This document shows, piece after piece, positions 2,996-53,518 of a stretch of 55,385 nt of DNA. The notes under the pieces are model-generated. The model made no database searches. It was not told where the DNA came from and was given only the letters and a program-made list of their open reading frames with translations. Origin of the DNA: Acidimicrobiaceae bacterium (GTDB lineage: Bacteria > Actinomycetota > Acidimicrobiia > Acidimicrobiales > JAUTXP01); contig JAUTXP010000028.1 of assembly GCA_030837965.1 (NCBI GenBank), positions 1 to 55,385 on the forward strand. Direction: 5' to 3'. Position 1 is the first letter of the stretch, and each line of letters starts with the position of its first letter. Position numbers and translations under genes: made by a program.

Positions 2996-3559
2996 GTGGC
3001 AGTCATCGATGTGGCCGGCTATGTGGCAGACCTGAAGGCGCACGCCGTCGACCATGGTTTCCATGTGCACGATGAACGGCATCTGGTAGAGACGTACTCG
3101 CTCCGCCAGATGTGGGAGGTGGACGTCCATCCCGAGGAGGGCTGCGGCGGGCCGCTGGACGTGCACTTGGCCTTGGAGGTCGACCCCCGCGTGCTGCTCG
3201 CCTTTGAAGACGTCGTGGTCGACTTGCCGGAAGACGTCGAGCCGCCCGACGAGTTCCACTTCCCCATCACCTTCTCGTGGGCCCTTCCGCCGTTGCCAGT
3301 GGCTCCTGACCTCTTGCAGCTTCACCTCGAGCTTGCGGGCATCGGCGGCGTCGACCTGCCGCTCGAAGTGTCGGCCATCGACTCGTTCCCGTCGGCCACC
3401 GACGCGCCCGAGCGGCGGATCACGATTCTGGCCAAGCAGCCGGTGTCGCTGGCCCGCATCCTGGCCGGCGAAGAGACGCTTTTGTGCGACGTGCTCGAAC
3501 GGTGCATGGACGTGAGCCAGTATCTGTTGGAGCGAGCCCCCGCCTGGTTGGGCGACTAG
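2996..3559 (+). CDS. Conserved-looking hypothetical protein
   Basis: 187 residues, acidic, with no signal peptide, membrane segment or motif I can name. It alternates strand-rich stretches (WEVDVHP, LDVHLALEVDPRVLLAFEDVVVDLPEDV, FHFPITFSWALP), so a beta-rich soluble fold is likely. It starts at a GTG 6 nt after the GNAT stop, with its own TATCCT -10 hexamer. It is convergent with the YbjN-like gene. No function is assigned. Confidence 0.7.
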   Translation: MAVIDVAGYVADLKAHAVDHGFHVHDERHLVETYSLRQMWEVDVHPEEGCGGPLDVHLALEVDPRVLLAFEDVVVDLPEDVEPPDEFHFPITFSWALPPLPVAPDLLQLHLELAGIGGVDLPLEVSAIDSFPSATDAPERRITILAKQPVSLARILAGEETLLCDVLERCMDVSQYLLERAPAWLGD

Positions 3560-5292: not shown

Positions 5293-5335
5293 CTGGAGGA
5301 CATGGCCTGCGGATTCGACGGGCTATGTCCTCCAG
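5293..5335. repeat. Palindromic repeat family A, copy 1
   Basis: 43 nt. CTGGAGGACATGGC (5293-5306) is inverted as GCTATGTCCTCCAG (5322-5335). The same 43-nt element occurs at 40431-40473 and 53476-53518. This copy sits in the spacer between the divergent 49-residue gene and the GAF-ANTAR gene. Confidence 0.85.
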
Positions 5336-13140: not shown

Positions 13141-13173
13141 ACTTTTCCACAGCAGCAGGTGCTGTGGAAAAGT
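13141..13173. repeat. Palindromic repeat family B, copy 1
   Basis: ACTTTTCCACAGCA (13141-13154), loop GCAGG, TGCTGTGGAAAAGT (13160-13173). The arms extend outward imperfectly as a C-run on the left and a G-run on the right. This copy is between two convergent genes and could terminate both. Other copies are at 24754, 27571 and 30975. Confidence 0.88.
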
Positions 13174-17925: not shown

Positions 17926-17972
17926 TTCTGGGCACCAAAACTTGCCCATAGGACAAGAAAAGGTGCCCAGAA
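17926..17972. repeat. Palindromic repeat family C, copy 1
   Basis: 47 nt. The outer arms are TTCTGGGCACC (17926-17936) and GGTGCCCAGAA (17962-17972), with A4 blocks next to them and an inner CTTG/CAAG stem. Copy 2 at 41426-41472 is the same length in the opposite orientation. It sits between glyS and ppdK. Confidence 0.85.
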
Positions 17973-24753: not shown

Positions 24754-24785
24754 ACTTTTCCACAGCAGCAGGGGCTGTGGAAAAG
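24754..24785. repeat. Palindromic repeat family B, copy 2
   Basis: CTTTTCCACAGC(A) with loop and GCTGTGGAAAAG; the loop-side base differs from copy 1 (GGGG in place of GGTG). The copy lies between the divergent starts of the FAD oxidoreductase and dinG, so it cannot be a simple terminator here. Confidence 0.85.
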
Positions 24786-27570: not shown

Positions 27571-27601
27571 CTTTTCCACAGCACCTGCTGCTGTGGAAAA
27601 G
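27571..27601. repeat. Palindromic repeat family B, copy 3
   Basis: CTTTTCCACAGCA, loop CCTGC, TGCTGTGGAAAAG; its loop is in reverse orientation compared with copies 1 and 4. It sits between ygfZ and the lipoprotein gene, both on the minus strand. Confidence 0.87.
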
Positions 27602-30974: not shown

Positions 30975-31005
30975 CTTTTCCACAGCAGCAGGTGCTGTGG
31001 AAAAG
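30975..31005. repeat. Palindromic repeat family B, copy 4
   Basis: CTTTTCCACAGCA, loop GCAGG, TGCTGTGGAAAAG, extended by CATCCCCCGCG on the left and TCGCGGGGATG on the right, so the arms reach about 24 bp. The right arm runs into the start codon of the hydrolase at 31014, so the hairpin would hide that start in RNA. Confidence 0.88.
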
Positions 31006-38606: not shown

Positions 38607-39367
38607 GGCACGCCCGCGGCGAAGACGCCCACCACCAGTTGACGGGCCGCGGTGCGCAACCACGACCTTCCGGTGAAGGCGGATAGGCCCACGCCCACGG
38701 CCAGTGAGGCCACCAGTCCCAGGGCCACCGACAGCCAGATGGCGGTCGTGCCCTGGGCGAAGAACCACGGCATCAGCGGGATCACGGCGCCGATGGCGAA
38801 GGTGATGAACGAGGCCAGCGCGGCCGAACCGGGCGAGCCCAATTCGGCGGGGTCGATGCCCAGCTCCTCGCGGGCATGCGTCTCCAAGGCCAAGTCCGGG
38901 TCGCGGTGCATCTCCGTGGCCAGTTCCTCGGCCAGCTCTTTGTCGACACCGCGGCTGCGGTAGATCTGCACCAGCTCCCGCCGCTCGTTCTCCGGCCTGC
39001 GGTGCAACTCCTTGCGCTCGATCTCCAGCTCGCGCTCGAGCAGCTCGCGCTGGGCCTGCATGGAGTTGAACTCGCCCGCGGCCATGGAGAAGGCCCCGCC
39101 CAACAGCCCGACCACTCCGGCCAGTCGCACCACTGAAGCGGCGGGATGGGCGCCCGCCACGCCGATCACCAAGGCCACGTTGGAGACGAGCCCGTCGCTG
39201 ATCCCGAACACCGCGGCACGCGCCGTGCCGCCTTGGATGTTGCGGTGGTGGTGCTCGTGGGTGCCGTCGTGCGGGGTGGGCGACTGCGAGGCGGTGGGCT
39301 GTGGGGTCGTCGACTGTGCCGGCGTTGGTTGCGCGGCCGCTTGGGCGGGCGTTCCTTTGGTCACCAT
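38522..39367 (-). CDS. VIT1/CCC1-family iron/manganese transporter
   Basis: 281 residues. A disordered His/Thr/Pro-rich head (HDGTHEHHHRN) precedes membrane helices (AAVFGISDGLVSNVALVIGVAGA, VVRLAGVVGLLGGAFSMAAGEF). A Glu-rich cytosolic helical insert (RELLERELEIERKELHRRPENERRELVQIY) is the metal-binding domain of VIT1-type proteins. Three more membrane helices end at VVGVFAAGVPYLIGRAVGAG. It likely moves Fe2+ or Mn2+ out of the cytosol. The Ala/Thr-rich C-terminal tail is encoded opposite the mshD end. Confidence 0.9.
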   Translation of the reverse strand: MVTKGTPAQAAAQPTPAQSTTPQPTASQSPTPHDGTHEHHHRNIQGGTARAAVFGISDGLVSNVALVIGVAGAHPAASVVRLAGVVGLLGGAFSMAAGEFNSMQAQRELLERELEIERKELHRRPENERRELVQIYRSRGVDKELAEELATEMHRDPDLALETHAREELGIDPAELGSPGSAALASFITFAIGAVIPLMPWFFAQGTTAIWLSVALGLVASLAVGVGLSAFTGRSWLRTAARQLVVGVFAAGVPYLIGRAVGAGTSAATAATGARGVTSIV

Positions 39368-39375
39368 GGCCCTCC

Positions 39376-39382
39376 TACCCTA
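39376..39382. promoter_or_regulatory. Symmetric bidirectional -10 element (VIT1-like / rlmN)
   Basis: TACCCTA gives TACCCT on the plus strand, 5-8 nt before the rlmN GTG codons, and TAGGGT on the minus strand, 9 nt before the transporter ATG at 39367. The 19 bp between the start codons contain no other candidate. Confidence 0.55.
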
Positions 39383-39386
39383 TGGG

Positions 39387-40460
39387 GTGGTGTCCCGTTA
39401 CGACCTCTCCCGCGACGATGTGGCGCGCCTGCTCGCAGGCCAGCCCTCGTATCGGGTCACGCAGGTCTGGGATGCGCTGTACCAGCGGGGCGACGAGCCC
39501 GAGGAGATGACGGCCCTGCCCAAAGGCGTGCGGGCCGAGCTTGCGTCGGCCGAGGAGTTCGGGGCCGCGCTCACGCCCGTCGTGGAGTCGGTGTCGGACA
39601 ACGGCTCAACCGTGAAGTGGCTGTGGTCGCTGGCCGACGGGGCGCGGGTCGAGACCGTGCTCATGCACTACCCGCAGCGCACGACCGTGTGCGTGTCGAC
39701 CCAAGCGGGATGCGCCATGGCGTGCGGGTTCTGCGCCACGGGCCAGGCCGGGTTCGAGCGCAACTTGTCGGTGGGCGAGATCGTGGAACAGGTCGTGCGG
39801 GCCGGGCGGTTGGCCCGGGCGGGCGGGCGGCGACTGTCCAACGTGGTGTTCATGGGCATGGGCGAGCCCTTGGCCAACTACGACCGGACGTGGGGCGCAG
39901 TGCAGCGGCTGCACGACGACGTCGGCCTGTCGGCCCGGCACATCACGGTTTCGACGGTGGGCGTCGTGCCCGGCATCCGCAGGCTGGCCGGGGAGGCGCT
40001 GCCGGTGAACCTGGCCGTGTCGCTGCACGCGGCCAACGACTCGCTGCGCGACTCGCTGGTGCCCTTGAATCGGCGGTACCCGCTCGCTGTCCTGTTGGAG
40101 GCGTGCCGGGTGTACCTGACGGCCAAGGGCAGGCGGCTGTCGTTCGAGTGGGCGTTGATCGACGGCGTGAACGACCGGCCGTCGGACGCGGACGAGTTGG
40201 CCGAGTTGGCCCGGCCACTGGGCGCGCACGTGAACCTGATCCCGCTCAATCCGACGCCGGGGTTCTTGACTCGGGGCACGCCGGCCGCGGGCGTGCGGGC
40301 GTTCAGGGACCGGCTGGTGGCCCTGCGGGTCAACGCCACAGTGCGACGCAACCGCGGCGCCGAGATCGACGCCGCCTGCGGCCAACTGGCCGCGCCTTCC
40401 GTTTCGGCGACAGTCCGCCCTCCCTCTCGTCTGGAGGACATAGGTACCCGCAGGGTGTAG
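39387..40460 (+). CDS. rlmN: 23S rRNA (adenine-2503-C2)-methyltransferase RlmN
   Basis: 357 residues. The radical-SAM motif is CAMACGFCATGQAGFERNLSVGEIVEQV. It also has VVFMGMGEPLANYD, ITVSTVGVVPGIRRLAGEALPVNLAVSLHAANDSLRDSLVPLNRRYP, EWALIDGVNDRP and NLIPLNPTPG. It methylates A2503 of 23S rRNA and some tRNAs using an Fe-S cluster and a methylated Cys. Two adjacent GTG codons (39387, 39390) follow the TACCCT hexamer. The last ten codons (LEDIGTRRV and stop) are inside palindromic repeat A2. Confidence 0.95.
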   Translation: MVSRYDLSRDDVARLLAGQPSYRVTQVWDALYQRGDEPEEMTALPKGVRAELASAEEFGAALTPVVESVSDNGSTVKWLWSLADGARVETVLMHYPQRTTVCVSTQAGCAMACGFCATGQAGFERNLSVGEIVEQVVRAGRLARAGGRRLSNVVFMGMGEPLANYDRTWGAVQRLHDDVGLSARHITVSTVGVVPGIRRLAGEALPVNLAVSLHAANDSLRDSLVPLNRRYPLAVLLEACRVYLTAKGRRLSFEWALIDGVNDRPSDADELAELARPLGAHVNLIPLNPTPGFLTRGTPAAGVRAFRDRLVALRVNATVRRNRGAEIDAACGQLAAPSVSATVRPPSRLEDIGTRRV

Positions 40461-40473
40461 CCATGTCCTCCAG
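40431..40473. repeat. Palindromic repeat family A, copy 2
   Basis: 43 nt. CTGGAGGACATAGG is opposed by GCCATGTCCTCCAG, with an inner CCC-GCA-GGG mini-stem. It covers the last codons of rlmN (L-E-D-I-...), and the TAG stop is at repeat positions 28-30, exactly as in copy 3 at the end of menE. Confidence 0.88.
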
Positions 40474-41425: not shown

Positions 41426-41472
41426 TTCTGGGCACCTTTTCTTCGCCCTGCGACAAGATTTGGTGCCCAGAA
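41426..41472. repeat. Palindromic repeat family C, copy 2
   Basis: 47 nt. The outer arms TTCTGGGCACC (41426-41436) and GGTGCCCAGAA (41462-41472) are identical to copy 1. The inner part matches copy 1 read in the reverse orientation. It lies between the MaoC gene and the DUF3152 gene. Confidence 0.85.
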
Positions 41473-52434: not shown

Positions 52435-53505
52435 GTGCGCCGACTGGTCCCAATGACGGCCGTGCTCGGCCCGCACACGGTCGAGGCCATGCAGCGGACG
52501 TGGGCCGATGGCCACGCCGTCTTGCCGGTGGACGACCGGCTGCCGCCGGCCGCGAGAGACGCCTTGCTCGACGCGCTGGGCGCGGGTCGCGAGGTCGGGG
52601 ACGACGACGCGCTCGTGCTGGCCACGTCGGGGACCACGGGCGCGCCCCGCGGCGTGGTGCTCACGTTCGAGGCCTTGGCCGCAGCGGCCATGGCCACCAG
52701 CGCACGGCTCGACGTCGATCCGGACCGGGACCGCTGGCTGGCCGTGCTCCCGCTGGCCCATGTGGGCGGGCTGTCGGTGATCACACGGAGCCTGGCCACG
52801 GGCACGCCGTTCACCTTCGAGCGCGATGACCGCTCGGCCACGCTGGTGTCGGTGGTGCCCACCCAGTTGCACCGGGGCGACGTCGACCCCGGCCGCTTCC
52901 GCAAGGTGGTGGTCGGCGGCTCGGTGGACTGGCGGCCCGCGCCCCCCAACGCGGTCCACACCTACGGCATGACGGAGACGGCGGGCGGGGTGGTGTACGA
53001 CGGCGTGCCGGTGGACGGTGTCGAGGTGCGCGTCGACCGGACCGACGGCCAAGTCCTGCTGCGGGGGCCGATGCTGTTGCGCTGCTATCGGGACGGCACC
53101 GACCCCAAGACGGCGGACGGCTGGCTGCCCACCGGCGATGCTGGGCGGCTCGACGACGACGGTCGGCTGGTAGTGCTGGGCCGCATGGACGACGTCATCG
53201 TCACCGGCGGCGAGAAGGTGTGGCCCGACGCAGTCGAGCGGGTGCTGCGGTCGTGCCCGGGCGTGGCGGAGGTGGCGGTGGCCGGTCGGGCCGACGACGA
53301 GTGGGGGGCGCGGGTGGCCGCCTTCGTGGTGCCCGTCGACTGGTCGGCGCCGCCCACCCTCGACGGCTTGCGGGACGCGGTGAAGGCGGTCATGCCCGCC
53401 TACGCCGCGCCCAAGGAACTGGTCCTGCTGGCGACGCTCCCCCGCACCGCCCTGGGCAAGGTCCGCCGACGCGAACTGGAGGACATAGACCCACCCAACG
53501 GGTAG
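52435..53505 (+). CDS. menE: o-Succinylbenzoate-CoA ligase
   Basis: 356 residues, a short ANL adenylate-forming enzyme as usual for actinobacterial MenE. The P-loop is [19 protein letters not shown], then [37 protein letters not shown], the hinge block [38 protein letters not shown] and the catalytic Lys near the end in [14 protein letters not shown]. It activates OSB with ATP and CoA. The GTG start follows a TACCGT hexamer. The last ten codons (LEDIDPPNG and stop) lie in repeat A3. Confidence 0.95.
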
Positions 53506-53518
53506 CTATGTCCTCCAG
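53476..53518. repeat. Palindromic repeat family A, copy 3
   Basis: 43 nt. CTGGAGGACATAGA is opposed by GCTATGTCCTCCAG, with an inner CCC-AAC-GGG mini-stem. It covers the menE stop with TAG at repeat positions 28-30, identical to the placement in rlmN. It is located between the convergent menE and nrdJ genes. Confidence 0.88.

Follow-up and report, generated by a model that had tools for sequence, protein, structure and literature searches.

A dispersed, REP-like palindrome of 43 nucleotides near gene 3' ends in Acidimicrobiales

REPs are dispersed palindromes that lie near the 3' ends of genes and often supply TAG stop codons; some of their families have no known transposase (PMC3733652). Among the latter are the CGTC REPs, for which no dedicated transposase is known and whose families have stems of 8-9 bp (PMC3733652). 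REPINs, which go together with RAYT transposases, are non-autonomous palindromic repeats forming lineage-specific populations in each genome (PMC3116915, PMC2817692). Here, we compare a 43-nt palindrome from an Acidimicrobiales genome with these systems.

The window, i.e. the whole stretch of 55,385 nt that was analysed, contains three such palindromes (Table 1). All are exact and have the invariant arms CTGGAGGACAT/ATGTCCTCCAG, which confirms the original prediction of three identical-armed copies with respect to coordinates, length and arm identity; in 100 dinucleotide shuffles the expected number of copies was 0. The palindrome at the end of menE lies convergent with a ribonucleotide reductase gene.

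Table 1. Copies of the 43-nt palindrome in the window and the two genes that end inside a copy.
Feature	Position	Strand	Context	Basis
Palindrome copy 1, 43 nt	5293..5335	+	intergenic, 141 nt before GAF-ANTAR gene	exact match, context
Palindrome copy 2, 43 nt	40431..40473	+	overlaps rlmN 3' end (LEDIGTRRV-TAG)	exact match, flank-alignment orientation, translation
Palindrome copy 3, 43 nt	53476..53518	-	overlaps menE 3' end	exact match, flank-alignment orientation, translation
rlmN	39357..40460	+	last 9 codons and stop in copy 2	TIGR00048, matched residues 13-351 of 367
menE (o-succinylbenzoate-CoA ligase)	52435..53505	+	last 9 codons and stop in copy 3	TIGR01923

Other palindromes were seen in the window as well. 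A second, very uniform family of 31 nt (CTTTTCCACAGC-7-GCTGTGGAAAAG) occupies positions 13142-13172, 24755-24785, 27571-27601, and 30975-31005; four more copies occur in the stretches L028, L038, L074, and L089 of the same genome, and the family lies mostly between C-rich and G-rich flanks. A third family of 47 nt (TTCTGGGCACC-25-GGTGCCCAGAA) is found at 17926-17972 and 41426-41472, and in none of the other stretches retrieved from this genome.

The original prediction had proposed a search of the genome and its relatives and had regarded a lack of further copies as contrary evidence. Genome-wide (3.55 Mb, 88 contigs), the 43-nt palindrome occurs in 89 copies with exact arms; as a control, the same arm pattern read backwards and not complemented gave no match in the whole genome. 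With up to three mismatches over the 22 arm positions and the length fixed at 43 nt, 99 copies were found. Context and anatomy were assessed for the 83 distinct copies with fetched surroundings that remained after removal of repeats; 77 of these placed copies have a length of exactly 43 nt. The arms are invariant by search and near-invariant when mismatches are allowed, whereas hardly any two of the 21-nt interiors are alike (on average, 9.4 of the 21 positions differ). In the stretches fetched around the copies, the covariance model R2 found 84 exact copies and one mutated one (in L070); the variants that it found in stretches fetched for them are a palindrome with the other arm type CTCGAGTACAT (L255) and one with a single arm mismatch (L256). 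A pool of decayed copies was found by covariance model neither in the fetched stretches nor in the window, where three exact copies stand beside no decayed one. Neutral mobile elements rarely lack decayed copies, which argues for selection for a function. In L070, the copies at 2008-2050 and about 3434-3476 are 1.4 kb apart; their interiors are the same, their right flanks are similar, and one of them has a mutated arm (CTGGAGAACAT). This pair is probably a local duplication.

DNA uptake sequences, as known from Neisseria and Pasteurellaceae, are short repeats that are mostly single and partly form inverted pairs at gene 3' ends. The 43-nt palindrome resembles them as a short repeat with inverted pairs at gene 3' ends, but its arm is hardly ever single: in the stretches of its own genome, 170 single arms compare with 84 pairs, which account for nearly all of them. 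An uptake-sequence-like single motif was rejected, because the arms come in pairs. At a distance of at most 90 nt from some full copies, part-arms (GTCCTCCAG or CTGGAGGAC) are located, namely at L003, L015, L031, L035, L038, L053, L059, and L074; possibly, these are the remains of second copies. Leaving aside such part-arms, or a single tandem half, that accompany a few of them, the exact copies of this genome are mostly single, the nearest pair having starts 773 nt apart. An alignment of the flanks gives the palindrome an orientation, and does so better than shuffled flank pairs: C-N-C-G-W precedes and W-C-C-G follows the element. The left flank is pyrimidine-rich and the right flank purine-rich (0.72 and 0.72, versus 0.51-0.54 in element-free gaps). 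Four pairs of copies have an identical interior; on visual inspection the flanks of such copies disagree, and consequently these pairs do not reveal the copied unit.

Genes were called by means of our own periodic Markov model, which was trained on the window and leaves individual start sites uncertain. According to these calls, the neighbouring genes of the 83 placed copies are convergent in 29, tandem in 38, and divergent in 12 cases; two copies are at contig edges, and two were called wholly inside a gene, i.e. the palindrome is extragenic in most cases. The copies often lie 15-60 nt beyond a stop codon; for tandem pairs, the median distance to the stop upstream is 35 nt, and for convergent pairs the median is 28 nt. 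Convergent gaps are rather short in the window, where they leave room for a 43-mer at 74 of 4,366 places; in the element-free gaps of the other stretches of this genome, the figure is higher (1,777 of 11,331). Both shares are below the observed 29 of 79, which indicates that convergent gaps are favoured.

The product of rlmN ends with LEDIGTRRV and that of menE with LEDIDPPNG, and in both genes TAG occupies positions 28-30 of the element; translation thus bears out that the two ends share a frame, the pattern LEDI-x5 and the position of the stop. The rlmN product reaches 352.6 bits with the RlmN model TIGR00048 (cut-off 290); for the menE product, the best matches are o-succinylbenzoate-CoA ligase models, yet these scores are below the curated cut-offs. 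A stop codon is located inside the palindrome in 8 of the 83 placed copies. The proposed count of ends in the LEDI frame (L-E-D-I-x5, TAG at 28-30) confirmed such ends for three genes, which are rlmN, menE, and one gene in L080; the five others stop in a DWRT frame (D-W-R-T, TAG at positions 11-13). Because two stop-bearing frames are in use, the frame common to rlmN and menE is little more than chance.

The original prediction had also suggested a comparison of C-termini, in which LEDI-type ends of ancestral origin would speak against a contribution of the repeat. The RlmN tails readable in 16 relatives are variable, and LEDI occurs in none of the 16. The TIGR01923 profile ends at MenE residue 348 of 356, which is the first residue encoded by the element, and in relatives the similarity to MenE mostly ends where the element begins. 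Judged from these comparisons, the C-termini of RlmN and MenE are derived. In several relatives, including G013 and G008, the same next gene (encoding QPQTLQ) directly follows rlmN; in G013 and G008, both of which have their own palindromes elsewhere, no palindrome was found after rlmN. Given the non-LEDI tails and the palindrome-free rlmN sites of these two carriers, the copy at rlmN was apparently gained; this is the simplest interpretation, the alternative being a loss in all relatives. The palindrome also illustrates how a dispersed repeat rewrites the C-termini of housekeeping proteins (RlmN, MenE), apparently without breaking them.

For a survey of relatives, the covariance model R1 was built from the copies of the genome described so far (G000), and 397 genomes of the order were scanned with stricter filters, at most 12 candidates being scored per genome. 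Related palindromes were found in 14 of the 397 Acidimicrobiales genomes, G000 included, and these genomes represent about ten families of the order; among these 14, the match in G065 is weak and G010 has a single weak match. An independent scan pointed to two carriers, MAG Acidimicrobiales YX2bin35 (G161) and MAG Actinobacteria YU_71_112 (G134), and the latter, with 103 matches when both strands are counted, contains roughly 50 copies. In a phylum-wide sample, a broader model found G000 and G013 only, plus two weak single matches: G435 shows a related-looking palindrome, G468 does not. The single weak matches in G010 and G468 are probably due to chance. The palindrome in G435, a genome of the same phylum and another order, is located at about 1510-1560 of L239 and has the form TTCTGGGGAAGATCGC...GCTATCTTCCCCAGAA; its build is similar to that of the 43-nt family. 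Matches in Micromonospora and Aquisalimonas (L019, L021), which are single and exact and lack the flank pattern, were treated as chance.

The arms are specific for the lineage: they read CTGGAGTACATGGC in G134, TCCCGAGTACATAGC in G067 and G013, GTTGGAGGAAATAGC in G005, and TTCTGGAGGCAATAGG in G001, and the lineage-specific changes are matched on the opposite arm. In a set of 56 sequences, 17 of the 20 main-stem pairs show changes on both sides. When the whole structure was tested on this set, 207 doubly changed cells were counted, compared with 75.5 in shuffles; a shift of the partner by one column lowered the pairing from 88% to about 40%. Paired change alone is compatible with an RNA hairpin as well as with a two-fold symmetric DNA site and does not separate them. 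The congeneric genomes G067 and G013 share one copy at an orthologous site, in a region of about 85% identity; the arms of this copy are the same in both, while in its interior four pairs carry changes in both partners, and all of them still pair. This persistence between congeneric species signals that movement is slow or old. A thiolase gene is followed by a copy in G013; the copy is absent in the best match of G067, which has an identity of only 70% and is possibly a paralogue. At L177 (about 560-1690) of G013, about 1.1 kb separate the upstream gene from the palindrome, whereas both adjoin in L182 of G067; the 1.1-kb stretch of G013 starts with an antitoxin-like gene.

With respect to a mobiliser, a search of 12 carriers found no member of the RAYT/Y1 family PF01797 in G000 nor in 9 of the 11 others; the genomes are complete to about 98% in the case of G000 and to a lesser extent for some other carriers. 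At the palindromes we found no target-site duplication, the conserved CG that adjoins the arms being the only direct repeat, and for this reason rejected an IS or MITE derivative. A recurrent neighbour gene acting as mobiliser was rejected as well: the genes near the palindromes have no family in common, and the gene clusters shared by several loci are few and small, none of them recurring at the majority of loci.

The original prediction had ascribed a hairpin to the gene ends. A transcribed RNA hairpin, which would act as a bidirectional terminator or as a stabiliser of mRNA 3' ends, as proposed for some REPs, would suit a position just beyond stop codons and between convergent genes, the long possible stem and the paired changes across genomes. 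However, the stem is not followed by a T-tract (T amounts to at most 19% at the tabulated positions beyond the first adjacent base) and the 3' flank is purine-rich, which led us to reject an intrinsic terminator. Selection on an RNA hairpin transcribed together with the upstream gene would be expected to leave more G-U pairs than A-C mismatches on the sense strand. For the sense strand of tandem copies, we counted 12 G-U versus 18 A-C in G000 and 8 versus 13 in the other genomes, which gives 20 versus 31 together; a 2:1 ratio of G-U to A-C is rejected (P = 5e-5). A comparison of the interior pairing in G000 with swapped halves gave a slight excess in one sub-type and none in the other. Moreover, a hairpin does not need sequence-invariant arms, and for the palindrome no Rfam family scores above its gathering threshold. 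We thus regard an RNA hairpin as quite unlikely, and the predicted hairpin role was not supported; the missing G-U excess favours a palindrome that would act, and be recognised, as DNA and not as RNA. The same prediction had placed the element at gene termini, where it would supply last codons, stop and hairpin together. What stands is that the element is dispersed, lies mainly on the 3' sides of genes and can give the last codons and the stop. As a dedicated terminus cassette it is highly improbable: rlmN, menE, and the L080 gene do have their LEDI-frame ends within a copy, but the genome-wide count largely refutes this idea, as only 8 of 83 copies contain a stop codon, DWRT is the commoner frame, and most copies lie beyond the stop.

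A chromosomal protein-binding site is a further explanation. A putative host protein related to the nucleoid, segregation or replication would bind, at some 100 sites, two arms of 11 bp whose centres are 32 bp, or about three helical turns, apart, and the 3' flanks of genes would be where such sites do least harm. Invariant arms at a spacing fixed in 77 of 83 copies, free interiors, the lack of decayed copies and mismatches without strand preference agree with such a site. It is difficult to reconcile with a core host site, however, that the palindromes are patchy (present in 14 of the 397 genomes) and that the arm sequences differ between lineages across many sites; in addition, most genomes have interiors that are palindromic as well, which is needless for a pure two-arm site. 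Altogether, this explanation seems rather unlikely to us. In view of the dispersal, the fixed length, the arm invariance, the lineage-matched arms, the 3' context, the derived rlmN C-terminus and the palindrome-free rlmN sites of two relatives, we assign a probability of about 60% to a REP-like dispersed DNA palindrome of Acidimicrobiales, which has spread by a route that is not an obvious RAYT one and whose arms are kept by recognition.

For a REP-like palindrome of this kind, the following course of events is conceivable. The palindrome would spread, or would have spread, by a route other than an obvious RAYT/Y1 transposase, and new copies would settle mostly just downstream of genes. Some putative protein would recognise the arms, most likely as DNA, and the arms would thereby be kept intact. 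Where a copy came to lie across a gene end, the open reading frame would run into it and stop at the in-frame TAG at positions 11-13 or 28-30. The coding overlap is then best read as a by-product of where the palindromes land, namely next to stop codons, a situation also described for REPs. More tentatively, a putative non-RAYT protein might recognise arms of 11-14 bp at fixed spacing and move or maintain as many as some 100 copies in a genome, its arm specificity and the sites shifting together between lineages.

A comparison with known systems shows similarities and differences. As in the GTAG and CGTC superfamilies of REPs (PMC3733652), the elements are short, dispersed, high-copy imperfect palindromes with lineage-specific sequence types; and, like REPs, the mostly extragenic copies lie mainly between convergent or unidirectional genes, close to 3' ends. 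In contrast to the CGTC REPs with their stems of 8-9 bp, the 43-nt element is longer and its stem comprises up to 20 bp; in contrast to both superfamilies (PMC3733652), it is not dimeric as a rule, and its arms are invariant and its interiors variable. The combination of unpaired tag, stem of 8-9 bp (in the CGTC families) and terminal tail that marks these superfamilies was not found. One end is CGTC-like, often reading CGT-CTGG, and the other is WCCG; the last base of the tag is located within the stem. The family forms lineage-specific palindromic repeat populations in a genome as REPINs do (PMC3116915, PMC2817692); unlike REPINs, it has no paired arrangement as a rule, and PF01797 was not found in 10 of 12 carriers. 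Elements in opposite orientation paired at short distance, which characterize REPINs and BIMEs, and the association with RAYT were likewise not the rule. As stem length and RAYT differ and the tag agrees in part, we name the family REP-like and not REP. The words Actinobacteria, Streptomyces and Mycobacterium are absent from the main text of the REP survey PMC3733652, and the literature searched, with most subscription papers outside it, contained no description of the 43-nt family in Acidimicrobiales; apparently, this is an undescribed, new lineage-specific REP-like family without RAYT. In contrast to the superfamilies of PMC3733652, it belongs to an actinobacterial order; it extends REP-like palindromes to an order whose carriers mostly lack the known REP mobiliser, and its arms, which are invariant at about 100 sites yet lineage-matched, provide a clean test case for the upkeep of RAYT-less palindromes.
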